DNA of 64,000 bases from Hyphomicrobium sp. (lineage in GTDB: Bacteria; Pseudomonadota; Alphaproteobacteria; Rhizobiales; Hyphomicrobiaceae). Below the pieces are notes generated by a model. That model did not search any database. It worked only from the letters and a program-made list of their open reading frames with translations, and was not told the origin of the DNA. This document shows, one piece after another, positions 7,663-63,484 of this stretch. Position 1 is the stretch's first letter. Every line of letters begins with the position of its first letter. A program made the position numbers and the translations under genes. The stretch is taken from positions 220,817 to 284,816 of the forward strand of contig RXJH01000007.1 of the NCBI GenBank assembly GCA_003987725.1. The letters run 5' to 3'.

Positions 7663-7818
7663 TGACCTGGCTCGATCCTTCTCATGTCCGAATTGTCGTA
7701 CCCGGTCAGTTCTATATACGTCTCTATATTGAAAACCCGCGGCGACTTCCCGGTTGACCGCTTCCTGCGTATAGCCTTTTTATTTCAGTTTCCCACCGAA
7801 ATCCCGTGAAGGTGCAAA

Positions 7819-45663: not shown

Positions 45664-45676
45664 CTTATCACGAGCC

Positions 45677-46105
45677 TCAGTCTGGTGGCCGTGATTCCAA
45701 ATAGGACCGAATAGCCCACATTGCTTCTTGGCTGAGTATACCTTCAAATGGCGGCATCTTGAAATCGCCGTTGACGGTCGCGCCGTGACGGATGCGATTG
45801 AGAAACCAAGCGTCGCCGTCGGGGGTGGCCTCAACGTAGCGCAGGTCCGGAGCAATGCCCCCCGAGATAGCTTCGAGACCATGGCAACGAGCGCAGTTTT
45901 GGTTATAGCCAGAAGCTCCAATCTTGATTGCAGTCTCATTGCCCTTGTAAGGGTTTTCCGCCCGCCATTCCGGTCCAAGCGGCTCGAGCCCCGTTGTATC
46001 AACAGGCTCGGGCGTGACACTGCCGTGTGCTAAGGCGTCAAATGCGCAGGTTGCGGTTGCTAGCAGAGCAACGACAAGCACAACCGTCAATCGAGCTAAA
46101 TTCAT
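45677..46105 (-). CDS. pedF: Cytochrome c, PedF-like (electron acceptor of PQQ alcohol dehydrogenase)
   Basis: The 142-residue protein has a signal peptide ending near ALAHG and one CxxCH heme site in NQNCARCHGLEAISGGIAPD. The methionine in GDFKMPPFEG is the likely sixth ligand, and LSQEAMWAIRSYLE closes the domain. This is the pattern of cytochrome c-550 PedF, which takes electrons from quinoprotein alcohol dehydrogenases in the periplasm. Its dehydrogenase is probably the enzyme at 60670-62478, 15 kb away on the other strand under the same type of promoter. It lies 33 bases downstream of the propeller gene. Confidence 0.85.
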   Translation of the reverse strand: MNLARLTVVLVVALLATATCAFDALAHGSVTPEPVDTTGLEPLGPEWRAENPYKGNETAIKIGASGYNQNCARCHGLEAISGGIAPDLRYVEATPDGDAWFLNRIRHGATVNGDFKMPPFEGILSQEAMWAIRSYLESRPPD

Positions 46106-47221: not shown

Positions 47222-47312
47222 TTGCTTGCGCCTAGCATCACCATTGAGACCAATAACCGGCGCGGCCGAAGTCGGCAGCCGCGCCGTATTGCCTGGAGAA
47301 AGGACATCGCTC

Positions 47313-48014
47313 CTATCTGGCTTCCAAAACGGTGCTTCTGAACATGAGTCCGGCCGTGAACGCACCGAGCGGCGGAGCCAAGAGGTAAAGCCAAACGTCT
47401 GAGAGGGCCTGCCCGCCAACAAAAACAGCGGGACCAAGCGATCTGGCAGGGTTGAGCGACGCACCTGTTGCCCGAATGAAGGCCAGATGCATGACGAAGA
47501 GAGCAAATCCGATGGCGAGGCCGGCGGCGGGCGTCATGCCGTCGCGCGACGTGGCTCCGAGGATAACGACCAGGAAGAGGAACGTCGCGACGAACTCGAC
47601 TATGAAGGCTTGCGTGACGGCATACCCCGACCAGCCGGTCTGGCCGAGCCCCTGCGTGGCGACATCGTACCCGCCGGCTTTTCCTAACAGCACAAAATAA
47701 AGAAGCGCCGCGCCGACGACGCCTCCCAAAAGTTGCGCAGCAATGTAGCCCGGCAGATCGCTCGCCGGCAGACGGCCGGCCGCCCATGCGCCGATCGAGA
47801 CCGCCGGATTTATGTGGCAGCCCGAGATCGGTCCAATACCGTATGCGAGTGCCGCCACCGTCAGTCCGAAAGCCGATGCAATCGGCAGTAAGGCGACTGC
47901 CGAGATCTCCTGAGGCGAGCCGAGAGCTGCCCCCAATCCGCCAATGGTGATGGCGGCGCATCCAACAAAAACAAGTGCCGTAGTGCCAAGGAACTCAGCC
48001 AGATATCTGTTCAT
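47313..48014 (-). CDS. aqpZ: Aquaporin (MIP family, AqpZ-like)
   Basis: The 233-residue protein has six membrane helices and both pore motifs, HINPAVS (Asn69) and SLNPARS (Asn188). The selectivity-filter positions inferred by analogy to AqpZ are Phe49, His176, Ala185 and Arg191, which is a water-channel rather than glycerol-facilitator set. Ala replaces the AqpZ Thr. It lies 53 bases downstream of groEL on the same strand, so it belongs to the monooxygenase operon. A role in moving small uncharged intermediates such as 2-propanol, acetone or acetol, or in osmotic protection during growth on them, is inferred from position only. Confidence 0.9.
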   Translation of the reverse strand: MNRYLAEFLGTTALVFVGCAAITIGGLGAALGSPQEISAVALLPIASAFGLTVAALAYGIGPISGCHINPAVSIGAWAAGRLPASDLPGYIAAQLLGGVVGAALLYFVLLGKAGGYDVATQGLGQTGWSGYAVTQAFIVEFVATFLFLVVILGATSRDGMTPAAGLAIGFALFVMHLAFIRATGASLNPARSLGPAVFVGGQALSDVWLYLLAPPLGAFTAGLMFRSTVLEAR

Positions 48015-48067: not shown

Positions 48068-49732
48068 TTATCCGTTGACGAGCTTGATTGGCGGCGGTGT
48101 GCGGCCGAGAAGCTCTGCTCCGCCTCCTCGCGCCGCCTCCTTGGTCGGATCGTAATCATCCGGCCGCTTTGCAACGAGCGTGTCCGTCGTCAAAATCAAT
48201 CCGGCGATAGAAGCTGCGTTCTGTACGGCGCTCATTACGACTTTGACCGGATCGATAATCCCGGCTTCCATGAGATTGACAATTGTTCCGGTACGAGCGT
48301 CGAGCCCGTGGTCTCCTTTGGCCGCAGCGACCCGTGTGACCATTTCAGCTCCATCGTAACCGGCGTTCTGCGCGATCCGTTCGAGAGGCTTCTGCACCAC
48401 TTCGCGCACCAGCTCTATGCCCCGGCAGACGCTTCCTTTTGCGCTCTTGATAGACTTTTCGAGCGCGGGCTGAGAGCGCAGCAGGGCGGTTCCACCGCCC
48501 GGCACCACGCCATCGGAGACTGCGGCGCGGGCAGCTGAAATTGCGTCTTCAATGAGCTGCGCCTTGCGTTTCTGCTCGACCGGGGTCACGCCGCCGGCGA
48601 GCAGCAATGCGGTGCCGCCGGAAAGCTTGGCGAGCCGTTCCTGCAGCTTGTCGCGCTCGATATTCTCCGGCGCCAACTCATATAGGCGAGTGACTTGATC
48701 GCGGCGCGCCGCGATCGCGGCATCGCTGCCGGCGCCACGCGAAATCGCCGTACGCGTCGCTGATATTGTCGCCCGTTCGGCTGTGCCTAGATCGGCCGGT
48801 TCGCATTTATCGATACGACCTCCGAGATCGCGAGAAATAACACGGCCGCCGGTGACGATCGCGATGTCTTCGAGCATCGTCTTCCGCCAGTGACCATACT
48901 CCGGTGGGTTGACCGCAACTATTGGGACCCCTGTTTTCTCTCGGCGTCTAAGTATGTCCATAACGCAGGCCGGAGAGATGTCCTCGGCGATAATAAGGAG
49001 CGGGCGTCTGGTTTGTTCGATCGCCTGGTAGACGTTTGCTAGTTCCGTCGGAGACTCTATTTTCTGATCGGTGATAAGGATGTGTGGATGATCGAGGATG
49101 GCTTCGAGGGATTCCGCGTTCGTCGCCATATGGTGCGAGAGATAGCCACGATCAAACGTCATACCCTCAATGAACTCGAGGGTAGTGAACATTCCAACTC
49201 CGTACTGAACGTCCACAATGCCGTGCTTGCCGGCTTTGTCGAACGCCTCCCCCACGAGGCGGCCGAGGTCATAGTCATTGGCTGCTATGTTGGCTACCGC
49301 GCGGATCGTCTGCGCCGAGGCCACGGGCTTCGCTTGAGCCTTAAGCGAAGACAGGATTTCGCCGACGCCCATTTCGAGCCCATGCACCAATTCTACCGCA
49401 TTCGCCCCCGCAGCAACGGCCTTGAGGCCGCCCTGCACCAGAGCATCTGCCAGCACCGTCGCGGTCGTTGTACCGTCGCCCGCAACATCGTTCGTCTGCT
49501 TTGAAACTTCGCGCACGATTTGCGCGCCCATGTTCTCGAAGGGGCATTCGAGTTCGATCTCTGCGGCGATCGTCACGCCGTCACGCGATATAATCGGCGT
49601 GCCGACCGGGCGATCCATTACGGCATTCATGCCTCGCGGACCAAGCGTTCCGGCAACGGCGCGAGCGAGCTTGTGAACACCCCTGCCGAGCGCCTCGCGG
49701 GCCGATTCGTCATGCAACATCATCTTTGGCAT
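48068..49732 (-). CDS. mimG: Divergent GroEL chaperonin of the monooxygenase operon
   Basis: The 554-residue protein is a full-length Hsp60 with ATP-site elements LGPRGMNAVMD, DVAGDGTTTATVLADALVQ and VVPGGGTALL. It is clearly diverged from housekeeping GroEL: the start is MPKMMLHDESAREALGRG and the C-terminus ends PPIKLVNG with no Gly-Gly-Met tail. No groES is nearby. In actinobacterial mimABCD clusters a dedicated GroEL-like protein (MimG) is needed to assemble the large hydroxylase subunit, and that is the likely role here. It follows the DUF59 gene by 57 bases. Confidence 0.9.
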   Translation of the reverse strand: MPKMMLHDESAREALGRGVHKLARAVAGTLGPRGMNAVMDRPVGTPIISRDGVTIAAEIELECPFENMGAQIVREVSKQTNDVAGDGTTTATVLADALVQGGLKAVAAGANAVELVHGLEMGVGEILSSLKAQAKPVASAQTIRAVANIAANDYDLGRLVGEAFDKAGKHGIVDVQYGVGMFTTLEFIEGMTFDRGYLSHHMATNAESLEAILDHPHILITDQKIESPTELANVYQAIEQTRRPLLIIAEDISPACVMDILRRREKTGVPIVAVNPPEYGHWRKTMLEDIAIVTGGRVISRDLGGRIDKCEPADLGTAERATISATRTAISRGAGSDAAIAARRDQVTRLYELAPENIERDKLQERLAKLSGGTALLLAGGVTPVEQKRKAQLIEDAISAARAAVSDGVVPGGGTALLRSQPALEKSIKSAKGSVCRGIELVREVVQKPLERIAQNAGYDGAEMVTRVAAAKGDHGLDARTGTIVNLMEAGIIDPVKVVMSAVQNAASIAGLILTTDTLVAKRPDDYDPTKEAARGGGAELLGRTPPPIKLVNG

Positions 49733-49789: not shown

Positions 49790-50530
49790 TTAAGAGTGAC
49801 AGCCCGTGAGCGGCTCCGTGCTGAAGCGCTCGACCAGCAACCGCCGGCATAGGGCCCCGTTGAATTCGGCATTCGTCCTTAAGCGCCGGATTGATCTGAG
49901 GTAAGCTGGAAGGGCCATTGCGGAAAGCGGCGCGCCGTCGATCGATACGAACGCCAGCGATGAATCATCGAAGGCTCCGCCGATATGGCGGCGGTCAAGA
50001 TAGCGCGCGATTAGACCGTGCGCCTCGATCGTAGTCTCACGGTCGTACAGCTTGCCGACTGTCCACTCGACGACGTCACTTCCCGCAGCGCCTGCGTTTA
50101 GGAGGTGCGAAAGTAGTGCTTCCTGCCGCCACTGAAATGCCTTGTTGAGAAACGTCTTTCGGAGTTCATCGAGGTTGCCCGTCGCTTCCTCACCAAACGC
50201 CTCGCGAAACGACAGACCTTCGTTGACGCCGCGGTTGATGGCATCGACATACATGTGCTCGCCGAGCACGACCCTGGCCGAACGTACCCAATCCAGTTCG
50301 AGAATCTTGGCACGCATGTCCTCACCCATCATGAACGCGAAGTTCGGCGAACACCAATAGGTCGGAAGACGGAAACTGACGGCAACATCCCCATCGCCGC
50401 CGATCGTGACCTCTGTCACAAACCCCATTTCTGTCACCGATTCGTCGAGCTCCGGATCTGTGACGCAACCAAGCTTGCGCCACACATCCGAGACGCGGAC
50501 ATCGTTGGATGCTCGCGATGGCCTCTTCAT
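49790..50530 (-). CDS. DUF59/MIP18-type protein with extended C-terminus
   Basis: The product is about 246 residues. ATG 50530 lies behind GGAGGG and overlaps the amidohydrolase stop as ATGA, so the two genes are translationally coupled. Residues about 10-100 form a DUF59 domain (VWRKLGCVTDPELDESVTEM) with a conserved cysteine in YWCSPNFAFM. DUF59 proteins of the SufT/PaaD type help build iron-sulfur or iron centres. The extra 140 residues after it are unrecognised. In this operon it may help load iron into the monooxygenase or its reductase. Confidence 0.78.
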   Translation of the reverse strand: MKRPSRASNDVRVSDVWRKLGCVTDPELDESVTEMGFVTEVTIGGDGDVAVSFRLPTYWCSPNFAFMMGEDMRAKILELDWVRSARVVLGEHMYVDAINRGVNEGLSFREAFGEEATGNLDELRKTFLNKAFQWRQEALLSHLLNAGAAGSDVVEWTVGKLYDRETTIEAHGLIARYLDRRHIGGAFDDSSLAFVSIDGAPLSAMALPAYLRSIRRLRTNAEFNGALCRRLLVERFSTEPLTGCHS

Positions 50531-51567
50531 CGGAACCACCCTCCGGCAAGGGCCTTTTCCTTTTTCGCTTCGCCGCCGAACTTTGCCTTGTGCGCAGCAA
50601 TGTCGATGTCGTAGAGGCGAGCTGCGTTTAGGCCGAGTATCTTCTTCTTGGCTTCAAGATCGAGCTTTACGCCGGTCTCCGCCGCAACATCCTTCGGCAG
50701 TTCGTAAGCCATGAACTTGTCGATGATCCACTTCGGAGTCCAAATCCCGTAGTCGCTGCCGAACAGAAGCTTATCCGGTCCGAGCCAATAGAGCAGCTCA
50801 GAGATGATATGCGCGAAATATGCCGGCCGGCTGTGAATAAACGGGATAGCCACAGCAAGGCCGCCATAGACGTTGGTTTCCTGAGTGGCGATCCAGCAGA
50901 AATCGTCGAGGCGCGGCAAACCGCAGTGTTCGATGATAAAATTCAAATTCTGGAAAGACGTGGCGACATCGTCTACGTCGGCGACATCGAATGCGTCGCG
51001 ATTGAGCGGCAGAATGGTCGGACCCTTGTGGACGTGGATATTCTTGATCCCAAGTTTCTCGCACCACTCAAGATAACGATAGCTCTCCTTATCGGTGAGC
51101 TTGTAGCCTTTCGACTCGCCTTTCCACTCGGCCGTGTAGAGTTTGACGCCTTTGATGTCATAGGTTTCCTTTAAGGCGTGTAGGTACTCAATGCCCTTGG
51201 TGCCATCCCGAGGATCAAAGCTGCCGTTGAGAATAAATCGATCAGGGTGGTTCTTCTTAAGGACAGAGTTCTGCTCCGTGGTGTTGAAGCCGTTCACATA
51301 GAAATCATTCAAATACGTTGGCTGCAGGATCGCTATGTCGACATAGCCCTTGACGAACAGATCGTCGTAAAGCGTTTTTTCGTCGTACTTCTCGAATTTC
51401 TCTTTCGGCCAGAGCTCCTCTTTGGGGCTGAGGCCGGTGTGATAATTGAAAAAGCATTCGATGAACTGCTTGCCGTGGACGTTTTTCTGATTGGCCGGGC
51501 TTCCGTCCCAAAAGTGCGTATGACCGTCGATGACGAAGATTTCTTCGCCGTTGCGCGCCTTGTACAT
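50527..51567 (-). CDS. Metal-dependent amidohydrolase (amidohydrolase 2 family)
   Basis: The 346-residue protein is a TIM-barrel hydrolase with the metal motif HxH in DGHTHFWDG, later histidines in NIHVHKGPTILPL and EHCGLPRLDD, and the metal-binding aspartate in LLFGSDYGIWTPKW. Homologues follow mimABCD in mycobacteria and similar propane or phenol monooxygenase clusters, but the substrate is not established. It lies 103 bases after mimD and is coupled to the DUF59 gene. Confidence 0.83.
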   Translation of the reverse strand: MYKARNGEEIFVIDGHTHFWDGSPANQKNVHGKQFIECFFNYHTGLSPKEELWPKEKFEKYDEKTLYDDLFVKGYVDIAILQPTYLNDFYVNGFNTTEQNSVLKKNHPDRFILNGSFDPRDGTKGIEYLHALKETYDIKGVKLYTAEWKGESKGYKLTDKESYRYLEWCEKLGIKNIHVHKGPTILPLNRDAFDVADVDDVATSFQNLNFIIEHCGLPRLDDFCWIATQETNVYGGLAVAIPFIHSRPAYFAHIISELLYWLGPDKLLFGSDYGIWTPKWIIDKFMAYELPKDVAAETGVKLDLEAKKKILGLNAARLYDIDIAAHKAKFGGEAKKEKALAGGWFR

Positions 51568-51670: not shown

Positions 51671-52024
51671 TCAAATGTATTTCATTGCGTCGTCCATATT
51701 CCCGAACAGCACGACGTTCTCCTCGTCGATCATCACCATCCGGCCGTAATGCGTGGAGGTGGAGATCTCGAAGATATGTGGCGTCATCGGCCGGCCGAGT
51801 GCCTCGCTGATTTCACTCATCTTGAATTCGATCTTGCCTTGGCCGTCGATGCGGATCATTGCGGGCAGATACGTGACGACGATGTTGGGCTTCGCTTCCA
51901 TCACTTCCGCGATGGCACGCGCCTCGACGCTGTCGTTCATTGTTACTCCGCACTGATGCGAGATCGTGTCCTCGAACTTGATCTCCTTCATCGACTTGAA
52001 GATATTCGCGTTGTGGTCACTCAT
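51671..52024 (-). CDS. mimD: Monooxygenase coupling/effector protein
   Basis: The 117-residue protein has the size and layout of MmoB/MimD effector proteins, with EARAIAEVMEAKPNIVVTYL and MIRIDGQGKIEFKMSEISEA. These small proteins have no cofactor. They bind the hydroxylase and tune oxygen activation and substrate access. AAAGGA precedes the ATG. It is the fourth gene of the di-iron monooxygenase set, 49 bases after the beta subunit gene. Confidence 0.88.
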   Translation of the reverse strand: MSDHNANIFKSMKEIKFEDTISHQCGVTMNDSVEARAIAEVMEAKPNIVVTYLPAMIRIDGQGKIEFKMSEISEALGRPMTPHIFEISTSTHYGRMVMIDEENVVLFGNMDDAMKYI

Positions 52025-52073: not shown

Positions 52074-53156
52074 TCACGCGACTATCGACGGCGCAGCAAG
52101 ACCTGTTTCCGCGCAGATCATCCGCAGTCGGTTGCGAGCCTGTTCGAGCGCCTCCGTGAATGAGGCAACTTTCACGCGTGGTTGAGACCATATGGGCTGA
52201 AGTTGGACGGCGGCGGCGAGACACAGCTTGCCGTGCTTCTCGATCCACTCACTGATCACGATCCTGTTGTGGAGCGCATAATCCTTGTCGTTCAGCAGAA
52301 CGTGGATCAGCTCGACGCAGTTGGCGAGGTTTCTTTCATAGTCACCCTCAGCGGCGGAAACGACACTTGGTGTAATGAAGTCATTGTGTGCTGCCGCCAT
52401 CTGGAGGATGAACCCGCTGCGAAATAGCTCGCCGATGAGCGGCTCGAACACGATGTTGATTGCAACATACTGCTCGAGGTAGTCCGTCGCGCCCATAATC
52501 TCCTCTACGGCGCGACGCGTGCCTTGCCAGATCGGATTTTCAAGCCAGTTGCGTTTTCCCGCGTCCTTGTCGATGCCGCCCTCGATGTCGAGGCCGATCT
52601 CCCCGAGATAGAGCGTCAGATCTTGTGTGAAGCGCAGCTTGTAAGATGAGTTCGTCAGGATCGCGTTGTTGATCATCTGCGTGAAGCCGTAGCGCTGCGC
52701 CTGCATCAGCGACGTACCGAGACCAAATTCGGCATGCTTGTAAGCGCCTACGTGATCGGCGAGAACCTTGACCCACGATTTGTCGAAACGGCCAACCGCC
52801 CCCGAGCGCCGGCCGTTATCGATGACGTTCTGGATCGTGCCGCAGATCGTCGACTGGCGTTGATAGTGCGTCTTCTCCCATTCCTGATCGACGGCACGAA
52901 ACTTGTGCCAGTCTGCTGCTTTGACTCTGGTCCAATCTTTGGAGTACGTCGGCGTCCCGTCGGGGAAGTTGATAATCCAATCTTGCAATAGATAGCGATC
53001 GGGATCCGGCTGGACGTCGAGTGTCATGTCCTCGTAGTGCGTTGCCTTGCGGCCCTTTGGCTCGAAGTAGTTGAACTTGCGGCTATCGGAGCCGGGAAAT
53101 TCGGCGGCACCGGCTGCACCGGATTTCGCTGGCTGCGTTGCGGTCTGAGTATCCAT
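52074..53156 (-). CDS. mimC: Monooxygenase hydroxylase small (beta) subunit
   Basis: The 360-residue protein is the structural beta subunit of the hydroxylase. It has the ferritin-like fold but none of the E-x2-H iron motifs of the alpha subunit. Recognisable stretches are SRKFNYFEPKGRKATHYEDM, YLLQDWIINFPDGTPTYSKD and AEFGLGTSLMQAQRYGF. GGGAGG precedes the ATG. The order alpha-reductase-beta-coupling is that of group 5/6 soluble di-iron monooxygenases (MimABCD, PrmABCD). Confidence 0.9.
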   Translation of the reverse strand: MDTQTATQPAKSGAAGAAEFPGSDSRKFNYFEPKGRKATHYEDMTLDVQPDPDRYLLQDWIINFPDGTPTYSKDWTRVKAADWHKFRAVDQEWEKTHYQRQSTICGTIQNVIDNGRRSGAVGRFDKSWVKVLADHVGAYKHAEFGLGTSLMQAQRYGFTQMINNAILTNSSYKLRFTQDLTLYLGEIGLDIEGGIDKDAGKRNWLENPIWQGTRRAVEEIMGATDYLEQYVAINIVFEPLIGELFRSGFILQMAAAHNDFITPSVVSAAEGDYERNLANCVELIHVLLNDKDYALHNRIVISEWIEKHGKLCLAAAVQLQPIWSQPRVKVASFTEALEQARNRLRMICAETGLAAPSIVA

Positions 53157-53220: not shown

Positions 53221-54270
53221 TTATTCTTTCAAAATCGGCTGAGTGAATTTGTCGAAATAGAACCGGCTCGGCTCGACGCCCGCAGCAAACAGCACCGGCA
53301 TTAGCGCATCGATCATCGGTGGCGGACCGCAGGAATAAGCATCCACTGGACCGCTCAGTCCCTCTTCCCTTACCCGTCGCGCGACCACTTCATGGATAAA
53401 GCCCTTTTCTCCGTTCCATTCCCCAGCGGAAATTTCGTCGGAGAGTGCGGGGATGAATTGAAAGTCGTTGAGCTTGGCGGCAACGTCAGCAAATTCCTTG
53501 AGGAGGAAGAGATCCTTCTCGCTTCGCGCCCCGTAGAAGAAGCGCACCGGCCGCTGCTCCTTGCTTTCGATGTGGTCTTGCAAAATAGAGCGCAGAGGCG
53601 ACATCCCCGAACCGCCCCCAACGAGGATCATTGGGCCCTCGTGTCCCTCCCGCCGGAAGCAGGCACCGTAAGGACCCTTCGCAATGACTTCGGTTCCAGG
53701 CGTGAGGGCATCGTCGAGTAGGGCAGAGAACGCGCCGTTCGCATACTTCTTGATGATGAACTGCAACCGTATCTGCTCGCTCGGCGGATTAGCCATCGAG
53801 TAGGCACGTGTCACACCCGCGCTCGGAATCGAGAGGTCGACGTATTGGCCGGCCCAGAACTTGAGCGGTTCAGCAAGCTCGATCTCGAGGAGACGGATGT
53901 CGTGCGTCAGCGGTTTGACCGCCGCAACCTTGCCTTTAATCGCCCTGACCGGAATGGACCGGCTCAAAAGCTCTTCATCGAAATTGGTCAGCTCAACCGT
54001 GATGTCGCTGAACGCGTGTGTGCGGCAAAGCAGAATGTAGTTCTCATCCCGCTCATGATCAGGCAGGGCGAATGTCGAGTACTTGAGGAGATCAATGTCG
54101 CCTTCCACGAGTCGTGATTTGCAACTCGAGCACTGGCCCTCCTTGCAGCCGTGCATGAGTGCCACGCCTTGACGAAAGGCGGCATCAAGCACCGTCTCAC
54201 CCTCTTCGACGTCCATCTCGATCCCGATCGGCTCGAGTCGAACTTTATGGGCGGCCTTACTTGCCATCAT
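53221..54270 (-). CDS. mimB: Monooxygenase reductase (2Fe-2S, FAD, NAD(P)H)
   Basis: The product is 349 residues from ATG 54270, which follows GGAGCAG. The plant-type 2Fe-2S domain has Cys42, Cys47, Cys50 and Cys82 (GCKEGQCSSCKSR, then LLC). The FAD domain has RAYSMAN, and the NAD domain has GGGSGMSPLRS and CGPPPM. It passes electrons from NAD(P)H to the di-iron centre. A longer frame to 54333 lacks a ribosome site. The gene lies between the alpha and beta subunit genes. Confidence 0.92.
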   Translation of the reverse strand: MMASKAAHKVRLEPIGIEMDVEEGETVLDAAFRQGVALMHGCKEGQCSSCKSRLVEGDIDLLKYSTFALPDHERDENYILLCRTHAFSDITVELTNFDEELLSRSIPVRAIKGKVAAVKPLTHDIRLLEIELAEPLKFWAGQYVDLSIPSAGVTRAYSMANPPSEQIRLQFIIKKYANGAFSALLDDALTPGTEVIAKGPYGACFRREGHEGPMILVGGGSGMSPLRSILQDHIESKEQRPVRFFYGARSEKDLFLLKEFADVAAKLNDFQFIPALSDEISAGEWNGEKGFIHEVVARRVREEGLSGPVDAYSCGPPPMIDALMPVLFAAGVEPSRFYFDKFTQPILKE

Positions 54271-54386
54271 CTGCTCCGTGACGTTGGGTTGCCAGCAACC
54301 CAGTTGCGCGAAAGATGCGGAGGCCACTTGCAATCGGCCTCCGCACTCGTGGCAGGCGCCCGGAAACTAAGGCGCCCCCAACGATG

Positions 54387-56078
54387 TTAGTGACGGCAGG
54401 AACAGCTGCCATTGCAGGGATTGATCTTGAAGCCCGCACGATATTGGGCGACATGCTTTTCGCGATCGGCCAGGCTCATCTCGCGAAGGAGGACGAGCGG
54501 ACTCTGAAGCGTATTGCCGCGCACGTGATCAAGCGTCCACATGTCCTTCGGACCAAACCGCAGATGCGGCTGCGCCGTGATCGTCTTGCCGTCGGGACGA
54601 ACAAAGCCCAGATCCTTGATCGCGTCGGCGAGGTCCCAGCCGTGGTAGCAGTCTTCCCAAATCCGCTGGCCTTTGAAGCGGCCCATCGCAGGTGTCGGCC
54701 GGCCTTCGTATTCGGCTTGGAAAGCGACGGTGTGGGTCCACTTGCACTGCTCGGAACAGTACGTGTAGAGCTTGCCGTCGACTTCACCGACGCAGAAGTC
54801 CTCGCGGATTACGCATGGGCACATGCAGCTCCAGCAGCGGTGCGGATATACGTAGCCGTTCTCCTGATCGAATAGGATGTTCGTCTCGCCGGGAACGCTC
54901 TTTCTCGCGTACCACTTCCAGAAATCGCCGAACTCGGCGTACCAGCCCGGATATTTGTGCTCGAACCACTCGAAGTCTTTGTCGGTCTGGGCTTCGATAC
55001 GCCAGAAATTGACAGGCCAGCCGACTGCGAAGAACTGCGCAATCTTGTGCACGTAGTTCTTCTTGACCAGCCGATCCCACGCCGCCGAGACGTCATCATG
55101 ATGGATCTTGATGCCGTACTTCTCGAGCGGCAGCATGTAAGTCCGATAGTAGTCTTCGTAGATCCACCGGTGCCACAGCTCGACGTAGGACTCCTTGTTC
55201 TTGTCGCGGTTCGTCGTGCCGTATTCGATGAAGGTGCCGATGGCAGCGTCGACGATGGCGTGGTTTTGCCAGAACGCATATTTGAGATCGCGTTCGAGTA
55301 ACTGGTGGTTGGAGGGGTCGTTGATCATCGCCATCAGCATCGAGTGACCGTTGCCGATGTGGCGAGACTCATCCGACTGGACCGAGAGGAACACCGTCGG
55401 CAGAGCGTAGTCACCGTTGCGCGCGGCTTCTGACGGCATCGCAACGAACAGCGTGTTGGTGAATGCGGTCTCGGCGACGACGGTCAAATAGACATTGGCT
55501 GAGGTGATCGCGTCACCACAGATGAAGCCCTCGCCGAACTGGCGGCCGATCGTCGAAGCGTAGCATTTTCCGAAGGCCTTCTCGGTGATATCGAACCCAG
55601 CAGGATCGATATAGTTCTCCATGTACCATTTCTTGAGGTTCATCTGGATAGTCGAGTGGCGGAACTCGTCGACCATCTGCATGGTGAAGCCAGTGCGCAG
55701 CTCTTCACCGGGAGCAAGCCGGGCAACCATCGCCATGGCCCGCGCCGCAGAAATCTCCGGAAACGGGATGATGGCCAGAAACAGCTTCATCCATTCGACC
55801 CAACGGGGTTCGACGTTCCGGAACATGTCGCCACGCAGCGCGGCATCGAGCGCGCCATAGACACGATTGTCTTTTTCTTCCTGCATAGGAAAATAGGAGC
55901 GAAGAACCTGTTTCATTGGGTCCCTCGGCACCTTCGAGATCTTATAGTCCGTTGGGAAAGTCTGCGCTTCCTGGACGTACGTAGGTGTCCAGCCGAGGTC
56001 AGCAACGCGCGATGTGGCCTCGGCGATGCTGATGCCTTTCTGAGACGTGATCTTGTTGAGTGTTAAGCCTGCGGCCAT
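54387..56078 (-). CDS. mimA: Soluble di-iron monooxygenase hydroxylase alpha subunit
   Basis: The 563-residue catalytic subunit binds and activates dioxygen. All six iron ligands are present: Glu108, Glu138 and His141 (in DEFRH), Glu203, Glu237 and His240 (in DESRH). Each lies exactly six positions before its MmoX counterpart. Cys-rich segments near 430-455 (HRCWSCMCPCVIREDFC) and at the C-terminus are also present. The gene order and sequence fit MimA/PrmA-type enzymes that hydroxylate propane, acetone or phenol. I favour propane or acetone because of the neighbouring secondary alcohol dehydrogenase. GAAGGAG precedes the ATG. Confidence 0.93.
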   Translation of the reverse strand: MAAGLTLNKITSQKGISIAEATSRVADLGWTPTYVQEAQTFPTDYKISKVPRDPMKQVLRSYFPMQEEKDNRVYGALDAALRGDMFRNVEPRWVEWMKLFLAIIPFPEISAARAMAMVARLAPGEELRTGFTMQMVDEFRHSTIQMNLKKWYMENYIDPAGFDITEKAFGKCYASTIGRQFGEGFICGDAITSANVYLTVVAETAFTNTLFVAMPSEAARNGDYALPTVFLSVQSDESRHIGNGHSMLMAMINDPSNHQLLERDLKYAFWQNHAIVDAAIGTFIEYGTTNRDKNKESYVELWHRWIYEDYYRTYMLPLEKYGIKIHHDDVSAAWDRLVKKNYVHKIAQFFAVGWPVNFWRIEAQTDKDFEWFEHKYPGWYAEFGDFWKWYARKSVPGETNILFDQENGYVYPHRCWSCMCPCVIREDFCVGEVDGKLYTYCSEQCKWTHTVAFQAEYEGRPTPAMGRFKGQRIWEDCYHGWDLADAIKDLGFVRPDGKTITAQPHLRFGPKDMWTLDHVRGNTLQSPLVLLREMSLADREKHVAQYRAGFKINPCNGSCSCRH

Positions 56079-56154: not shown

Positions 56155-56349
56155 TCATTTGGCACGGGTCAGTGGTTTGCCTTCCGCTATGAAGCGTGCG
56201 CCAATGATCAGCACACCGATGGCAAAGTCCTTCCCATGCTTTTCGATCATGCGTTGGGCGATGTCGCCAACTTCGGCAAAGAACTCGTCTTTCGATTGCT
56301 CTTCCCCATTCATGGCCTGAGGTGCGGTCGGGCCGGAGTTGAGGTTCAT
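56155..56349 (-). CDS. Small unknown protein upstream of mimA
   Basis: The 64-residue protein starts at ATG 56349 behind GAGGAGG, and its start overlaps the stop of the preceding gene as ATGA. It is acidic, then amphipathic, with DEFFAEVGDIAQRMIEKHG and FAIGVLIIGARFIAEGKPL, and has no signal peptide. The family is unrecognised. Its position directly before mimA, with translational coupling upstream, suggests a role in monooxygenase assembly or stability. Confidence 0.7.
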   Translation of the reverse strand: MNLNSGPTAPQAMNGEEQSKDEFFAEVGDIAQRMIEKHGKDFAIGVLIIGARFIAEGKPLTRAK

Positions 56350-56810
56350 GACATCCTCCTCACACTGCGTTTCTCAGACGTCTCGTTGGCAGCGGCGGCG
56401 CTATCGAAATCATCAAGCGTCTGCTCTAGCCACGCCTTCTCCGTCAGAATTTTCTGACGCATGGCACCAAGCTCACTGATCCGCTCCTCAATCGTAAAAA
56501 GAGCTTCGCCGCGGCCCGACGAGGGCACCGCGTGAACGTCGCGTTCGGCATTCCGTCGCTCGATGTCGAGGCCGTTGATCTCGTTGTCGATGCGCAGAAT
56601 GCGAGAATTGACGTCAATGATGCGGACCACGATCTCGTGGCGTTTCAACATCACGTCTCTTCCATCGGGCGTACTCATGGCCTCGCTCCTCGCAAGACGC
56701 GTCCACGTGTGCCAAGCGCTCCTCGCGAGGCCTCCCACGAGAGCGCCAGTTTCGGACATGATTTGCTTTTTGATCATTGCATTGGCCGTAGCGGCGTTTA
56801 GGTCGAGCAT
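56346..56810 (-). CDS. Coiled-coil protein of unknown function
   Basis: The product is 154 residues from ATG 56810, which has GAGGGAT upstream and follows the alcohol dehydrogenase stop by about ten bases. A helical start (MLDLNAATANAMIKKQIMSE) is followed by a long charged coiled coil with LKRHEIVVRIIDVNSRILRI and ALFTIEERISELGAMRQKIL. A longer frame upstream overlaps the dehydrogenase gene. The protein is probably cytosolic. I know no family for it. It is coupled to the 64-residue gene. Confidence 0.72.
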   Translation of the reverse strand: MLDLNAATANAMIKKQIMSETGALVGGLARSAWHTWTRLARSEAMSTPDGRDVMLKRHEIVVRIIDVNSRILRIDNEINGLDIERRNAERDVHAVPSSGRGEALFTIEERISELGAMRQKILTEKAWLEQTLDDFDSAAAANETSEKRSVRRMS

Positions 56811-56820
56811 CGTTGATCCC

Positions 56821-57864
56821 TCAGGGCACGAGCACCGCGCGGCCGCGAACCTTGCCGTGATGAAGGTCGAGGAGAGCCTGATTGGCGTCTTTGAGCCGGT
56901 ATTCCTTCGTCCGGAGATTGACGCGGCCCCGATCAGCAAGGGCCATGAGCTCGACGAGCTCCGCATAGGTGCCAACAAGATTGCCGACGATCGTCTTCTC
57001 TGAAGCGATCATGTCCAGTGTCGGCACCTCGACCCTGCCGCCATATCCGACGATGTAATAGAAGCCGTCGTTTCGTGTCGCGGCGAGCCCCTTTTTGACG
57101 GCATCCCCTTCGCCGACGAAATCAATGACCGCTTCGGCACCTTGACCGTCGGTCAACTCCTTGATCGCTTCGACTTCATTCCCGTCGGCTTTGATAAGGT
57201 GATCGGCGCCGCATTGCTTGGCGAGTTCAAGGGAGACATCAGAGCGATCGACTGCGATGATGCTGGCAGCGCACAGCGCCTTCAACACTTGAATACCGAT
57301 GTGGCCAAGCCCCCCGACGCCGATGACCGCCACATACTGTCCGGGCAACAAATGGCGTGAAGCTTTTTTGGCTGCGCGATAAGCCGTCAATCCCGCGTCC
57401 GTGTAGGGCGCGACATCTTTGGGAGCGAGGGTCTTCGGCAACTTAATAAGAGAGCGCTGCGAGGTCTTCAGGTACTCGGCATACCCGCCGTTCGCGTTGA
57501 TGCCGGGAAAGCTGCTTCCGACTGCGTGCATATCGTTGCCGCGACGGCACGCCAGACAGTGCCCACTGGTGACGAGCGGGTGACAAACAACGGGATCGCC
57601 AACCTTTATGCCGTCAACTTCGGAACCAACGGCCTCAACCCAACCGGCGTTTTCGTGCCCCATGATATAGGGCAATGCGACGTTGGATTTCTCGCGCCAA
57701 ATTCCCTCGATGATATGTAGATCGGTTCTGCAAACACCTGCGCCGCCGATTCGCACAACAACGTCGGCAGGACTTTCTATGCGGGGGGCTGGTACATCTT
57801 CGTATTGAACAAATTCCTGTCCCGCCAACTTCTCGTCATAGCGATGTAGAACCGCCGCTTTCAT
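56821..57864 (-). CDS. adh: Zinc-dependent secondary alcohol dehydrogenase
   Basis: The product is 347 residues from ATG 57864, the first gene of the operon. It is a medium-chain dehydrogenase with catalytic zinc ligands Cys45, His70/Glu71 (GHE) and Asp156, and a Rossmann motif GVGGLGHIG. The segment GLTAYRAAKK and the layout resemble secondary alcohol dehydrogenases such as Rhodococcus ruber ADH-A. Structural zinc ligands are incomplete: Cys103 and Cys106 remain, but the outer two positions are Ser/Gly and His. In context it should oxidise 2-propanol to acetone with NAD. The gene starts about 45 bases after the sigma-54 promoter's predicted start site. Confidence 0.88.
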   Translation of the reverse strand: MKAAVLHRYDEKLAGQEFVQYEDVPAPRIESPADVVVRIGGAGVCRTDLHIIEGIWREKSNVALPYIMGHENAGWVEAVGSEVDGIKVGDPVVCHPLVTSGHCLACRRGNDMHAVGSSFPGINANGGYAEYLKTSQRSLIKLPKTLAPKDVAPYTDAGLTAYRAAKKASRHLLPGQYVAVIGVGGLGHIGIQVLKALCAASIIAVDRSDVSLELAKQCGADHLIKADGNEVEAIKELTDGQGAEAVIDFVGEGDAVKKGLAATRNDGFYYIVGYGGRVEVPTLDMIASEKTIVGNLVGTYAELVELMALADRGRVNLRTKEYRLKDANQALLDLHHGKVRGRAVLVP

Positions 57865-57919: not shown

Positions 57920-57936
57920 AGCAACGGCCGTGCCAA
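57920..57936 (-). promoter_or_regulatory. Sigma-54 promoter of the monooxygenase operon
   Basis: On the minus strand this reads TTGGCACGGCCGTTGCT. The -24 GG and -12 GC are separated by ten bases, as needed, and TGGCACG-N4-TTGC matches the consensus fully. It lies about 56 bases upstream of the alcohol dehydrogenase start, and the activator gene is divergent beside it. Confidence 0.85.
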
Positions 57937-58021
57937 GCTAATAACGCACTGATTTACTTCAGATGTAGTGAGATTTTTGTCTGCAAAGCCATGTTCGTCA
58001 GTCGACGTCATTGGGAGCATG

Positions 58022-58038
58022 TGTTGACTTTATCAACA
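58022..58038. promoter_or_regulatory. Putative upstream activator site of the monooxygenase operon
   Basis: TGTTGA and TCAACA form an inverted repeat with a 5-base spacer, 17 bases overall in the form TGTT-N9-AACA. Its centre is about 96 bases upstream of the -24 element. The same outline occurs upstream of the PQQ dehydrogenase promoter (60521-60537), so it is a plausible binding site for the divergent activator. Confidence 0.6.
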
Positions 58039-58369
58039 TTGGTGCAGCGCATATTTTTTATTCTGCTCTGCACTTCGGCAATGAAGACAAAAAAATTTCG
58101 TCACTTGAATAAATCATTGAGCATTAGGTGTTTTGGGACCAGCCGATAACATCCCCAGAAATGAAACTCGCGATAGGAAAAATCATCACGGCTCAAATCT
58201 TAGCAGTTTAGTCCTACCAGAGGATCACAGGGATCCGAGCGAACTGACACCGCCGTAGTCGATCGCCATCAATGCGCGGATGGAGGCCCATTAGTGCGGT
58301 GCAACGCATCGTAGTTGCGTTGTATTCAACGACATCTTCATCTACAGCTTTTGAACCCTTCAAAACTCT

Positions 58370-60394
58370 ATGATCGCGGAGACCATGAACGAAGGCGTTA
58401 TACGAGATGCATGGGAACGGTTTATCTGCGGTGGAGAGTTGCCGCAGTCGTTGCGGCCCGCGGTTACCGGGTCGTGGCAGCGTTGCCGGAACTTTAGCGT
58501 CGACGTCGGCAACCAGCGGGCCCCCAAACTTTCGGATGCCGAGCTTTATCGCCGTCGTTGCGACAACGCACTTCTGGCCGCCTCCGCGCGCCTAGCGATG
58601 GAACGCACCGGCCAGATACTTTCTGACGCCTCATCGATGCTGATCCTGACCGACGGTTCAGGGCATATCATTGAAACTCTCGGAGATCATCGGACCATTG
58701 ACGCCGGGCGCCAAGTTCACTTGGAGACCGGGGGCTGTTGGGACGAGACTGGCATAGGCACGAATGCGATCGGGACTGCCATGGCGGTCAGACAGCCGGT
58801 TCAGATTCATGCCGCCGAGCACTTCTGCGAGAAAGTCCAACATTGGACGTGCGCCGCGGCACCGATTTTCCATCCGATCGACCATGAGCTCCTTGGTGTG
58901 ATCGACATATCAGGTCCGCCCCAAACCTTTAGCAATCAAAACCTCGCCCTCGTTGTTTCGCTTGCCGACCATATCGAAGGGCTGATTGGCCAGTCGATCA
59001 AGAATGAACATTCTCGCCTCACCGCAAGATTTCAAGAAAAGCAGCGCAAATGGGGAAGCAATGATTTGGTTGCGATCGACCGGCGCGGAGCCATCGTCTG
59101 CGCCTCGCCGGAAGCGATAAGAAGCCTCGCGACGCACTTCGGTGCGCAGTCCGATGCCCCGGATCTGTCCTATCTCAAGTCATTACCCTTCGAGGACTGG
59201 GAAGGAGATCTCGCGCGGCGGCTGGCGAACACACGCACAGTGCTTGTGAAGGATGGTGACTCGGAGCTCGGGGCCATAGTTGTTTTCCCGGCAAAACACA
59301 AATCTTTTGCCGAATGCACGACCAGCTCGCGAAAACGGCAAGCTGCTCCCGTCGTCAACGTTCCGCCAACTGACGCGCCGCCGCGGGATATAGTAGCATC
59401 CGCTAGCGGAGGAAGCTCATCGCAGCGTGGACTGGAAAAAATCGTGTTTCTGCGTTCTGCAGATACGGACACAAGTCCTCATCGGAGCACTGCGAAATAT
59501 CAGTTCGTAGCATCGGACGCCCGGGTCAAACAGATTTGCGGCAATGTTTCTTCGGCCGCACGGATCGGCCTGCCAATTCTGATCGGCGGTCAAACGGGAA
59601 CAGGCAAGGAAGAACTCGCGCGGTTTGCTCATAACGCGAGCGGTCGCAAAGGCGCCTTTGTGCCGGTGAATTGCACTGCCCTCCCGGATAGTTTGATTGA
59701 GGCTGAGCTTTTTGGCTATGCGGACGGCGCATTTACGGGCGCACGAAGAGGCGGCTCGCGCGGACTGGCAAAAGAGGCGAACGGCGGCACACTATTTCTC
59801 GATGAAATCGGCGATATGCCGTTTGCTTTGCAGTCCGTGCTTCTGCGGTTCCTCGACGACTACACCGTTCGCCCAGTGGGAGGCACATCGACGAAGGTCG
59901 ACGTGCTCATCGTGTCTGCGACGAACGTTGAACTGGGCCAAGCCGTTACGAGCAAGCGCTTTAGAGCGGATCTTCTCTATCGGCTTAACACGGTGCACGT
60001 GACGCTTCCTAAGCTCAACGAACGAACGGATTTCGAGGAAATTGTTCTGCATCTGCTCGAGAAGATTAGTCCCGGAAACCGGATTACGGACAAGGCGGTT
60101 GCATCCCTCGCCCGCTGGGCTTGGGAAGGAAATATTCGCGAGCTGCGTAGCGTCCTCGCCCGCCTGGCGCTCTCGACAGCAGACCTGAACGGCACAATCG
60201 ACGAGGCTTTGGTCAGTCATCTCGGGCAACCGTCTTTGGCGCAGGCGCAAGGAGAATCTCTGCGCGATCTTCAGCGGGCGCGGCTGCTTGAAGTTTATGC
60301 GGAGACCGGCGGAAACATCAGCGAGACTGCGCGTCGGCTTAATGTCTGCCGGAACACGGTATACAGGGCGCTAGAGGCTCAAGACTCCGAGTAG
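58370..60394 (+). CDS. mimR: Sigma-54-dependent activator (AcoR/MimR type)
   Basis: The 674-residue protein has an N-terminal sensory part with a GAF-type fold (GGCWDETGIGTNAIGTAM, then TCAAAPIFHPIDHELLGVID), a linker, an AAA+ domain with Walker A GQTGTGKE and the sigma-54 loop GAFTGA (453-458), and a Fis-type helix-turn-helix at the end (GGNISETARRLNVCRNTVYR). This is the AcoR architecture, in which the GAF part binds small ketones, alcohols or similar effectors. It lies between the two sigma-54 promoters and is the likely activator of both. ATG 58385 is an alternative start. Confidence 0.9.
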   Translation: MIAETMNEGVIRDAWERFICGGELPQSLRPAVTGSWQRCRNFSVDVGNQRAPKLSDAELYRRRCDNALLAASARLAMERTGQILSDASSMLILTDGSGHIIETLGDHRTIDAGRQVHLETGGCWDETGIGTNAIGTAMAVRQPVQIHAAEHFCEKVQHWTCAAAPIFHPIDHELLGVIDISGPPQTFSNQNLALVVSLADHIEGLIGQSIKNEHSRLTARFQEKQRKWGSNDLVAIDRRGAIVCASPEAIRSLATHFGAQSDAPDLSYLKSLPFEDWEGDLARRLANTRTVLVKDGDSELGAIVVFPAKHKSFAECTTSSRKRQAAPVVNVPPTDAPPRDIVASASGGSSSQRGLEKIVFLRSADTDTSPHRSTAKYQFVASDARVKQICGNVSSAARIGLPILIGGQTGTGKEELARFAHNASGRKGAFVPVNCTALPDSLIEAELFGYADGAFTGARRGGSRGLAKEANGGTLFLDEIGDMPFALQSVLLRFLDDYTVRPVGGTSTKVDVLIVSATNVELGQAVTSKRFRADLLYRLNTVHVTLPKLNERTDFEEIVLHLLEKISPGNRITDKAVASLARWAWEGNIRELRSVLARLALSTADLNGTIDEALVSHLGQPSLAQAQGESLRDLQRARLLEVYAETGGNISETARRLNVCRNTVYRALEAQDSE

Positions 60395-60518
60395 ACCAAG
60401 ACTGCCGTTCCCGCGACCGACCCGGTCAACCTAGCTCAGCGCAAGCGATTGGCTACAAGCAATCAAGCTTTGTGCGCCGCACATTTCGTTACATGGCAAC
60501 ACTCACCCATCGAACCGC

Positions 60519-60539
60519 GCTGTTCAATCTTTGAACAGC
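60519..60539. promoter_or_regulatory. Upstream activator site of the PQQ alcohol dehydrogenase
   Basis: The arms GCTGTTCAA and TTGAACAGC are exact inverted repeats separated by TCT. The centre lies about 63 bases upstream of the -24 element, a typical place for a sigma-54 activator dimer. The inner TGTT-N9-AACA outline is shared with the site at 58022-58038. Confidence 0.7.
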
Positions 60540-60590
60540 CTCCGAATTTTGTGATCTCGCGAAATCAGAAGTTTCAAGAACTTGCCGCCT

Positions 60591-60605
60591 TGGCACGACG
60601 GTTGC
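60591..60605 (+). promoter_or_regulatory. Sigma-54 promoter of the PQQ alcohol dehydrogenase
   Basis: The sequence TGGCACGACGGTTGC has the -24 GG and -12 GC ten bases apart and fits TGGCACG-N4-TTGC exactly. It lies about 65 bases upstream of the dehydrogenase start. Confidence 0.85.
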
Positions 60606-60669: not shown

Positions 60670-62478
60670 ATGGATGAGATAATAGTGTCCTACAAGTTCG
60701 GAAGAACCGGCGGCGCGTTCGTGAGAACGCTCATGTGTGCCAGCGCATTCGCCCTTGCCATGACGATGGCAGGCACAGCCAAAGCTGGCGATGTGACGAT
60801 CGACGACCTCGCGAACGACGCGGGTTCGACCAACAATGTGCTTATGAATGGGCTTGGCTGGAACGCCCAGCGGTTCAGCCCACTCACTGAAATAAGCACC
60901 AAGACTGTAGATCGTCTCGTGCCCGCTTGGGCGATGTCATTCGGCGGCGAGAAAATGCGCGGGCAGGAAACCCAGCCGCTTGTTGAGGATGGCGTCATGT
61001 ATGTGACGGGATCCTACAGCCGCATGTTTGCAATCGACACGAAAACGGGTGCGCGGCTCTGGGAGTACGATGCGCGCCTGCCTGAAGGGCTTCTTACCTG
61101 TTGCGATGTCATCAATCGCGGCGCCGCGTTGTTTGGCGACAAGGTCTATTTCATGACGCTCGACGCCAAGGTTGTCGCACTCAATAAGAAGACAGGCAAA
61201 GTCGTCTGGTCGAAACAGATTGATGATCCCAAGGCTGGGCATACGGCAACGGCCGCGCCGCTCATAGTACCCTCGAAGGCGTTCGGGCCCCTCATCGTAA
61301 CGGGCGTTTCAGGAAGCGAGTTCGGGATTGTCGGCCGTGTCGAGGCTCGCAAAGTCGACGATGGCGAGTTGGTCTGGACTCGACCAACCATCGAAGGAAA
61401 CGTCGGCTCGCTCAACGGTCAGCCTTCGACGATGACTGGGAAGCAAAACGAAACCTGGCCCGGCGATCTGTGGAAGACCGGCGGCGGTGCGCCATGGCTC
61501 GGCGGAACCTACGATCCCGACACGAAGCTAATATTCATGGGCGTCGGCAATCCTGGCCCATGGAACAGCTACGTCCGCCCGGGGGACAACAAATGGGGTT
61601 GCTCACGGATCGCCATCGATCCGGAAACCGGTGAGATCAAGTGGGGTTTCCAGACAACACCTCACGACGGATGGGACTATGACGGCACCAACGAGGTCGT
61701 TTCGTTCGATCTCAACGGAACGAAAGCTGCGGCAACGGCCGATCGCAACGGCTTCTTCTACGTGCTCAACCGCGAGAACGGAAACTTCATCTCTGCGTTC
61801 CCATTCGTCGAACAGATCAATTGGGCAAAGGGCATCGATAAGGCCGGGCGGCCGATCTACGATCCAGCCCATCGCCCTGGCGACCCTGCAAAATCGGCCG
61901 ACGGTAAGAAGGGCGACATGATCTGGGCGGTACCAGCCTTCCTCGGCGGCAAGAACTGGATGCCGATGGCCTACAGCCCAGATACCAAGCTGTTCTATAT
62001 CCCGTCGAATGAGTGGGGGATGGATCTATGGAACGAGCCCATCACCTACAAGAAGGGCGCGGCCTACCTCGGCGCCGGCTTCACCATCAAGCCAATATTC
62101 GCGGACCATATCGGATCTTTGAAGGCCCTTGATCCCTCCACGGGGAAGATCGTCTGGCAGGTCAACAACAAGGCACCACTTTGGGGCGGTGTCCTGACGA
62201 CGGCGGGCGGGTTAGTGTTTTACGGAACGCCCGAGGGCTATCTCAAAGCACTTGACGCCAAGACGGGCCAGGAGCTTTGGTCATTCAACACGGGATCGGG
62301 AATCGTAGGTTCGCCGATCACGTGGGAGCAAGACGGCGAGCAGTATGTTTCCGTCGTTTCCGGCTGGGGCGGTGCGGTTCCGCTGTGGGGCGGAGAAGTC
62401 GCGAAATCGTTCCAGGGCATTCCGCAAGGTGCAATGACCTGGACCTTCAAGCTTTTGAAGAAAGTCGCATCCAACTGA
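60670..62478 (+). CDS. PQQ-dependent alcohol dehydrogenase, lanthanide (DYD) type
   Basis: The product is 602 residues from ATG 60670, which follows GGGAGG. A signal peptide (ending AGTAKA) sends it to the periplasm. The eight-blade quinoprotein fold is marked by repeated W motifs ([24 protein letters not shown]). Cys144-Cys145 are the vicinal pair that covers PQQ. The metal site reads WDYDG: catalytic Asp336 is followed two residues later by Asp338, the extra ligand of lanthanide enzymes, where calcium enzymes have Ala or another residue. It resembles ExaF/PedH more than MxaF. It oxidises primary or other small alcohols, with PedF as acceptor. Confidence 0.9.
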
Positions 62479-62529: not shown

Positions 62530-62665
62530 AAGCTCGCCTGAGCAACCGGCATTGAACAGACCCTCTCAAAGAAACGCTGCTTGAGCCGGCTTTGAGGCCA
62601 AGCACTTACCCGCGCGAGTCGAATTGGGCCTCTCTTCCGCCGCTCCTCGAGTCCTTCGCAAGGCG

Positions 62666-63484
62666 ATGTTCTATATCGCGGCGTTGTCGCTCATTTTCTT
62701 CCCGCTCTGTCTAACCGTTGCCGTCGTCCATGTGGAAAGCACCTACGCAAAAGCATTGGGCGACGACGGCGTCGATATTGCATTGATCGTGTCGGTTGAT
62801 GTTTCCCAGTCGGTCGATGCTGGTCGCTACAGGCTTCAAATGGAGGGCATCGCGAAGGCTCTCGAAGATCCGTCGGTAATCGCCGCCATAACTGGGGGGA
62901 CTCGAGGCAGCATCATGTTTTCCATGATCACGTGGGCTGATCAGGCCAATGTCGCAATCGGCTGGCACCCGATCGCCTCTGCGAAAGATGCCGCGACGAT
63001 TGCGAGCCTTGTGCGGCAGATCCCGCAGCAAAGCGGTGAATTCACTTGCTTGGCCCGCATGCTTCACACGGTTTCGGTCAGCATCATCCCGAGTCTGAGA
63101 GTGCCGGTCGGTCGCTTTGTCGTCGATGTTTCAGGCGACGGCATCGACAATTGCACGGATACGGACGGCCTTCATGCAGAACGTGACGCCGTTCTGGCAC
63201 TCGGGGCAACGATAAATGGCCTTCCCATTCTGGTGAAAGGTGAGAATGACGTCGTTGGCGCGGGCGCCTACCGTGCCCCCGGGTTCGGCCTCAAGGAGCT
63301 TTCGCGCGCTCCCGATCTTGAGGCGACGACGCTCGATCAATGGTATCGCGACCACGTCGTCGGTGGCCCAGATACCTTTCTTCTGCCCGCGCGTGGCTAC
63401 GAGGACTTCGCGCGCGCGCTGCGGCAAAAATTCGTGACCGAAATCAGCGCGATTCCGCCTCCGTCGCCGCACGCGCTGCAATGA
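62666..63484 (+). CDS. DUF1194 von Willebrand A-like secreted protein
   Basis: The product is about 272 residues. ATG 62666 places a hydrophobic signal segment (FYIAALSLIFFPLCLTVAVV) at the N-terminus. TTG 62624 is the alternative. The mature part is a DUF1194 domain with a VWA-type metal site (VSVDVSQSVDAGRY) and VVDVSGDGIDNCTD. Many alphaproteobacteria have such proteins, of unproven function. It lies downstream of the PQQ dehydrogenase but after a hairpin, so co-transcription is uncertain. Confidence 0.8.
   Translation: MFYIAALSLIFFPLCLTVAVVHVESTYAKALGDDGVDIALIVSVDVSQSVDAGRYRLQMEGIAKALEDPSVIAAITGGTRGSIMFSMITWADQANVAIGWHPIASAKDAATIASLVRQIPQQSGEFTCLARMLHTVSVSIIPSLRVPVGRFVVDVSGDGIDNCTDTDGLHAERDAVLALGATINGLPILVKGENDVVGAGAYRAPGFGLKELSRAPDLEATTLDQWYRDHVVGGPDTFLLPARGYEDFARALRQKFVTEISAIPPPSPHALQ

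Follow-up and report, generated by a model that had tools for sequence, protein, structure and literature searches.

In a 64,000-nucleotide stretch of Hyphomicrobium sp. DNA (contig RXJH01000007.1, positions 220,817 to 284,816; hereafter the window), a sigma-54 activator gene lies between two sigma-54 promoters, one for a mim-type operon encoding a di-iron monooxygenase and the other for a pyrroloquinoline quinone (PQQ)-dependent alcohol dehydrogenase (ADH). Because both promoters hold the same rare signals, and these are retained in relatives, the mim operon and the PQQ-ADH gene are very probably switched on by one and the same activator. The initial annotation had proposed as much, joining cytoplasmic monooxygenation and periplasmic alcohol oxidation in one regulon, and the proposal is well supported by comparison of sequences: the upstream site co-segregates with the activator, the promoter spacings are kept in four genomes, and genes accessory to the PQQ enzyme lie in the mim run. 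We hold with considerable confidence to the whole explanation, that the shared activator would drive both transcription units and that a ped-like cassette was captured and split over the two promoters.

The two −24/−12 boxes, TGGCACGGCCGTTGC at 57921-57935 (−) for the ADH-mim operon and TGGCACGACGGTTGC at 60591-60605 (+) for PQQ-ADH, match TGGCACG-N4-TTGC exactly, with the GG at −24 and the GC at −12 of the sigma-54 consensus, and predict transcription starts near 57909 and 60617. Both boxes had been annotated before, but the first had been drawn one base too wide on each side (57920-57936). They are the only zero-mismatch boxes in the window, in which 26 boxes occur at up to two mismatches against a chance mean of 25.86. 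One rpoN gene was found in the genome, and a scan for sigma-70 promoters gave three matches, under the shuffle mean of 7.9. The previously reported TGTT-N9-AACA repeats also lie upstream of the boxes as described. The putative activator palindrome of the mim promoter (58022-58038; TGTTGA-CTTTA-TCAACA) has 6-bp arms and starts 103 bases before its box, while that of the PQQ-ADH promoter (60519-60539; GCTGTTCAA-TCT-TTGAACAGC) has 9-bp arms around a 3-base centre, its core at 60521-60537 beginning 70 bases ahead of the box. An integration host factor (IHF)-like site that agrees with the consensus at 9 of 9 positions occupies 57942-57954 (−), starting 19 bases before the mim box; the PQQ-ADH promoter has one at 8 of 9. 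An FNR-like reading of the mim palindrome was dismissed by eye, its spacing being one off and the second site unfit. In several relatives (e.g., L003, L006, L059, L067, L073, and L075), a tandem second palindrome stands about 33 bases from the first, and no convincing counterpart is seen in the window.

Across the genome (15 contigs, 4,249,670 bases, about 4.25 Mb), there are 19 copies of TGTT-N9-AACA (13 of the reversed pattern, as control) and five of TGGCAYG-N4-TTGC (control, 3). From these counts one calculates that the 110-bp stretches preceding the five boxes should together hold about 0.0025 palindromes, and they hold two; the counts, together with shuffles, lead us to reject a chance origin of the paired motifs. 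When palindrome and box are searched as composites, with a gap of 45-65 or 78-98 bases between them, each composite matches the genome once, and only these two promoters combine the elements at the searched spacings. The other 17 palindromes have no strict box 40-110 bases downstream, the best reaching 8 of 11 (L095, L104, and L105, the last with its palindrome inside an open reading frame (ORF)) or 7 (L096), and this speaks against a wider regulon in this genome. The prediction is a defined two-promoter regulon. As a separate observation, three of the five strict boxes, one of them within the window, directly precede PQQ-ADH-family genes, the other two at G000:C7:12642 and C15:2519 (L110, L111); an operon by the C7 box has, by eye, the look of an acetoin/pyruvate dehydrogenase set, and a further sigma-54 activator lies close by.

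The activator gene (58370-60394, +) encodes a GAF sensor, an AAA+ domain (PF00158, 183.7 bits) and a Fis-type helix-turn-helix (HTH) domain (PF02954, 30.8 bits against a cut-off of 22). The GAFTGA loop claimed for it is present in the translation and, together with the Fis-type HTH and the conserved palindromic upstream site, places the protein among the enhancer-binding proteins. The earlier label of MimR-type is a loose one, since the homologue beside the mim cluster of Rhodococcus sp. JS3073 lacks GAFTGA and the window protein is an ordinary sigma-54 activator. The comparison was with that homologue (L140), which matches at 27% identity across residues 4-239 and is cut off by the end of its locus.

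The sensor of the window activator is like that of the groEL-side activator of Bradyrhizobium, a kind that we label type B. Its GAF domain is about 59-61% identical to the groEL-side activators of Bradyrhizobium and Rhodopseudomonas and about 28-33% to their ADH-side activators, and the AAA+ domain is about 59-66% identical to both. In L003 (Bradyrhizobium erythrophlei), the neighbouring activators at 3707-5656 and 6024-7955 have 100% identity in the AAA+ alignment and 27% in the GAF domain, which suggests a sensor swap or gene conversion. Bradyrhizobium and Rhodopseudomonas may feed two sensors into one output module and one palindrome. An activator match in the metagenome-assembled L002 (5722-5952; L117 near 7380) is broken near residue 600, either by an assembly error or by a true break.

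The search of related genomes for TGTT-N9-AACA, which the initial annotation had suggested, found the motif at both kinds of promoter. A sample of 80 mimA loci was taken, of which 65 were usable for counting palindromes no more than 300 bases from where each mim locus has its first gene, with shuffles as control; 39 of these have a divergent activator and 26 do not, and the 15 omitted had no usable first gene or too little upstream sequence. Where the activator is divergent, 35 of the 39 loci have the exact palindrome (L036, L055, L061, and L062 lack it), against a shuffle mean of 0.04 and a shuffle maximum of 1; of the 26 loci that lack a divergent activator, none has it. These 26 (among L012-L070) instead have TGTC-N9-GACA in 10 cases and the looser YGTC-N9-NACA in 24, of which 15 have it twice at a distance of 42-44 bases; YGTC-N9-NACA probably serves a different subfamily of activators.

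The activators divide in the same way. An alignment of 108 entries, fragments and wrong-strand ORFs among them, has GAFTGA in 86, and the recognition helices were compared in those entries whose AAA+ identity reached 30% or more, which number 54, 43, and 3 by kind; one helix of the first kind and 7 of the second were unreadable. All 53 readable helices of the window kind, that of the window activator among them, have RN[TM]xYR, and all 36 readable ones of the other main kind have R[SAP]T. The palindrome co-segregates, then, with the activator subfamily and with its recognition helix.

Spacing is conserved as well. Among 41 mim promoters scored (the 39 with a divergent activator, the window, and the family genome G051), for boxes out of 11 and palindromes out of 10, all but that of L043 have a box of at least 9, and in 35 of those 40 a palindrome scoring 8 or better begins 101-105 bases ahead of the box; here and below, distances run from the start of the palindrome to the box. 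IHF-like sites of at least 8 of 9 positions occur in 28 of 44 promoters versus 6.7% of mononucleotide shuffles. From 20 loci picked, all with window-type mim genes, 19 genomes were searched in full (L016 was left out). The distal-spacing composite is found once in 17 of the 19 and the proximal once in 4, which covers the other two, and all 21 matches fall inside mim loci; therefore, by the strict pattern, the regulon in those relatives would have a single target.

These data bear on whether the palindrome might belong to a repressor or to a different sigma-54 activator. Palindromes of this outline suit many regulators, and the genome does hold further activators, e.g., L110 7204-9144, 30% identical to that of the window. 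Yet the palindrome tracks the subfamily and the HTH type of the activator next to it, and in the 19 genomes every composite match lies within a mim locus, so that we regard another regulator as very improbable.

The PQQ branch was followed in a family sample of 103 genomes, five of which have mimA. In four of the five (the window, G051, G061 (L002), and G095 (L001)), a PQQ-ADH gene comes after the activator and its promoter carries both box and palindrome. The palindrome begins 103-104 bases from the box at mim and 68-70 bases from it at PQQ-ADH in all four, and the PQQ-side palindromes score 10 of 10 in the window and L002 and 9 in L001 and G051. The fifth genome, G097 (L055), has an activator of a different sensor type, and no PQQ-ADH match was found within the 21.7 kb of L055. 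One further PQQ-ADH match exists among the 80 loci, in L052, at 39% identity.

It could be argued that the mim promoter is the sole true target and that the activator gene has its stem-loop or terminator in the PQQ-side palindrome, as this begins 125 bases past the activator stop, has long arms, and is imperfect in L001 and G051. A stem-loop, however, sits poorly with a spacing to the box of 68-70 bases in four of four genomes and with an outline equal to that of the mim site though centres and flanks differ; moreover, no T tract stands behind the palindrome, and it is absent from the output of the terminator scan. We give this explanation very little credence.

The arrangement of the genes points toward the shared regulon too. 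By ORF reading, the mim run comprises about 14 genes, not the 13 counted before, and begins with the Zn-type alcohol dehydrogenase (56821-57864, −), not with mimA. Two small conserved ORFs with no Pfam match (56155-56627, −) separate it from mimA, the hydroxylase large subunit (54387-56078, −; PF02332). There follow, all on the minus strand, mimB, the reductase (53221-54333); mimC, the hydroxylase small subunit (52074-53156); mimD, the MmoB/DmpM coupling protein (51671-52024); an amidohydrolase (50527-51567; PF04909); a DUF59 or FeS-assembly-like protein (49790-50539; PF01883); a GroEL-like chaperonin of the MimG kind (48068-49732); and an aquaporin-family channel (47313-48014; PF00230). With the A and C hydroxylase subunits, B reductase, D coupling protein, and GroEL-like gene in order, the gene set is that of a MimABCD, propane/acetone monooxygenase, and the enzyme is predicted to be of this type.

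The tail of the run, also on the minus strand, belongs to the PQQ enzyme by kind: a PQQ-dependent-catabolism-associated beta-propeller (46139-47120, start approximate; TIGR03866, 485.2 bits, cut-off 287.3), a cytochrome c550 of the PedF kind (45677-46105; TIGR04494, 195.2 bits, cut-off 122), and a periplasmic solute-binding-like protein (44809-45700, start approximate; PF00497; 50% identical to L112 7716-8582). The PedF-type cytochrome is at the same place in L001 (81%) and G051 (64%). Elsewhere in the genome, at C2, a beta-propeller, a PedF-like cytochrome (61%), a binding protein, and a PQQ-ADH (73% identical) form one contiguous run; the mim locus has a set of the same make-up split, three genes ending the mim run and the dehydrogenase standing under the other promoter.

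The dehydrogenase (60670-62478, +, with the ATG at 60670 picked for its ribosome site) is of the PedE/PedH/ExaA kind (TIGR03075, 753.5 bits, cut-off 480.05), and its nearest structures in the Protein Data Bank are 6zcv/6zcw and 1flg. It has the adjacent Cys pair, aligned with those of 6zcv and 1flg. By the WDxDG rule, in which the Asp two residues past the catalytic Asp marks the lanthanide type, the window, L001, L002, G051, and C2 enzymes have WDYDG, while 1flg has WDFSG; at this position PedE carries Ser and PedH Asp, according to passages of PMC5487730. The window enzyme is therefore predicted to be of the lanthanide type. A DUF1194 protein gene (62624-63484, +) adjoins PQQ-ADH in four of four loci.

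Even with both promoters co-activated, the PQQ-ADH might serve a separate purpose, oxidising short alcohols from the environment that also induce the activator and not the product of the monooxygenase. Enzymes of this kind are broad for short alcohols, and the glyoxalase-like, GMC oxidoreductase, and D-lactate dehydrogenase genes that follow DUF1194 in G051 could handle acetol. In the window genome, the G051 GMC oxidoreductase has no close relative (best 35%, partial). Against a separate purpose, the accessory cytochrome and beta-propeller genes of the PQQ enzyme lie within the mim gene run. Also against it, G051 retains PQQ-ADH, beta-propeller, PedF-like cytochrome, and binding protein, while a Zn-ADH gene was not found in its 27-kb locus, to which the search was confined; amidohydrolase, DUF59, and aquaporin genes were not found there either. 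We consider a separate purpose unlikely, if less so than the other alternatives weighed here.

Several points weigh against a shared regulon. The linkage to PQQ-ADH is known from four genomes of one family; one mismatch is present in the PQQ-side palindromes of L001 and G051; and at the mim promoter all four (window, L001, L002, and G051) have a palindrome that agrees with the wider consensus at only 8 of 10 positions. Five of their eight promoters have weak IHF-like sites (6-7 of 9), among them the mim promoters of L001, L002, and G051 at 7 of 9. Since the relatives were picked for window-type mim loci, only the absence of further targets in them is informative. The composites also match mimA-less genomes, one in G076 and G098 and the other in G015, G059, and G076, versus 1 and 0 for the reversed controls; a low background therefore exists, and we take these matches as such. 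A GC hairpin precedes the beta-propeller gene in the window (47258-47286, −), L001 (about 18700-18730), and G051, the three being mutually unrelated, strong, and with no clear T tract, and only 8-of-11 box matches were found there, so the operon tail may be transcribed on its own. Finally, redundancy is possible, as 12 genes of the genome clearly belong to the PQQ-ADH family (10 above cut-off).

Taken as a shared regulon, the system would work as follows. The GAF domain would sense a pathway compound, either substrate or product; MimR, for its part, reportedly responds to acetone. Activator dimers would bind TGTT-N9-AACA, the DNA would bend, and a hexamer would remodel and open the sigma-54 polymerase complexes at both promoters. 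One transcript would supply the cytoplasmic di-iron monooxygenase, the Zn alcohol dehydrogenase, and the chaperonin, with the PQQ-enzyme accessory proteins at its end, and the other the periplasmic lanthanide-type PQQ-ADH. The alcohol, or acetol, would be oxidised in the periplasm with electrons passing to cytochrome c; the PQQ enzyme may act on 1- or 2-propanol. As for history, we propose that a regulon with a single target elsewhere, by the searched pattern, captured a ped-like PQQ-ADH cassette and divided it between its two promoters.

It is tempting to read this history as a rewiring, in which the dehydrogenase acquired a copy of palindrome and box, the accessory genes moved to the end of the monooxygenase operon, and a two-input switch exists in Bradyrhizobium and Rhodopseudomonas. 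Neither transcript alone would then give a working pathway, and monooxygenation and periplasmic rare-earth-dependent alcohol respiration would therefore be obligately co-expressed. To our judgement, the chances for and against this fuller version are evenly balanced.

Two small tandem ORFs (43296-43580 and 43905-44213, −; 94 and 102 amino acids), alike by eye, lie past the binding-protein gene, and 41546-43276 (+) joins a methyl-accepting chemotaxis signalling domain to a family-3 solute-binding domain.

If the regulon is as predicted, it would show how a short-alkane/ketone monooxygenase pathway in relatives of Hyphomicrobium gained a respiratory alcohol step of the rare-earth type. It would offer a consensus for finding such regulons, TGTT-N9-AACA starting 101-105 or about 70 bases ahead of TGGC-N7-TTGC, and it points to a switch of regulator specificity on homologous operons, TGTT...AACA with RN[TM]xYR versus YGTC...NACA with R[SAP]T.

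How does this system compare with those already described? The mimABCD cluster of Mycolicibacterium with its adjacent regulator MimR resembles the window in the kind of monooxygenase, the Zn-ADH, the amidohydrolase, and the GroEL-like gene, as far as passages of PMC7176365, citing Furuya et al. 2011 and 2015, describe it; mimR is also named in a portion of PMC8394569. Unlike the window, the actinobacterial mim cluster of Rhodococcus sp. JS3073 has a regulator without GAFTGA and no PQQ-ADH match in its 25.6 kb. Actinobacteria are not known to have sigma-54. BmoR and MmoR, like the window protein as predicted, are activators of di-iron alkane monooxygenase promoters, for butane and methane, and BmoR is sigma-54-dependent, according to parts of PMC6366067 and PMC8784404; they serve another monooxygenase group.

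On the side of alcohol oxidation, the ped cluster of Pseudomonas putida shares with the window a PedE/PedH-type enzyme, PedF cytochrome, PedA2-type beta-propeller, and PedG/PedA1-type binding proteins, as seen in excerpts of PMC12997753, PMC5487730, and PMC6115532, the first of which describes PedF as essential for PedE/PedH activity. In the same excerpts, the ped cluster holds a LuxR-type activator and PedS2/PedR2, with PedR2 reported as crucial for PedE/PedH expression, whereas the window has the set split over two sigma-54 promoters together with a monooxygenase. In a published XoxF5 system, as described in part of its report, lanthanide-dependent periplasmic alcohol oxidation likewise aids growth on propane, but control is apparently by MxaY/MxaB rather than by a monooxygenase activator. 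Among the matches listed, in a mostly open-access literature, no paper was found in which one sigma-54 activator governs both a di-iron monooxygenase and a PQQ alcohol dehydrogenase.

A parallel in design is found in Azospirillum sp. B510 (L133 9400-10050), where a region with sigma-54 boxes in both directions separates a mim operon from a divergent operon for a GMC oxidoreductase and a cytochrome. The two differ in that a GMC flavoprotein takes the place of the PQQ enzyme, the activator is 32% identical, and a single TGTC-N9-GACA stands between the operons, by arithmetic 103 bases before the mim-facing box. Given this parallel, activators that join a monooxygenase with a second oxidoreductase may have arisen repeatedly as a theme, of which the PQQ case may be a variant.

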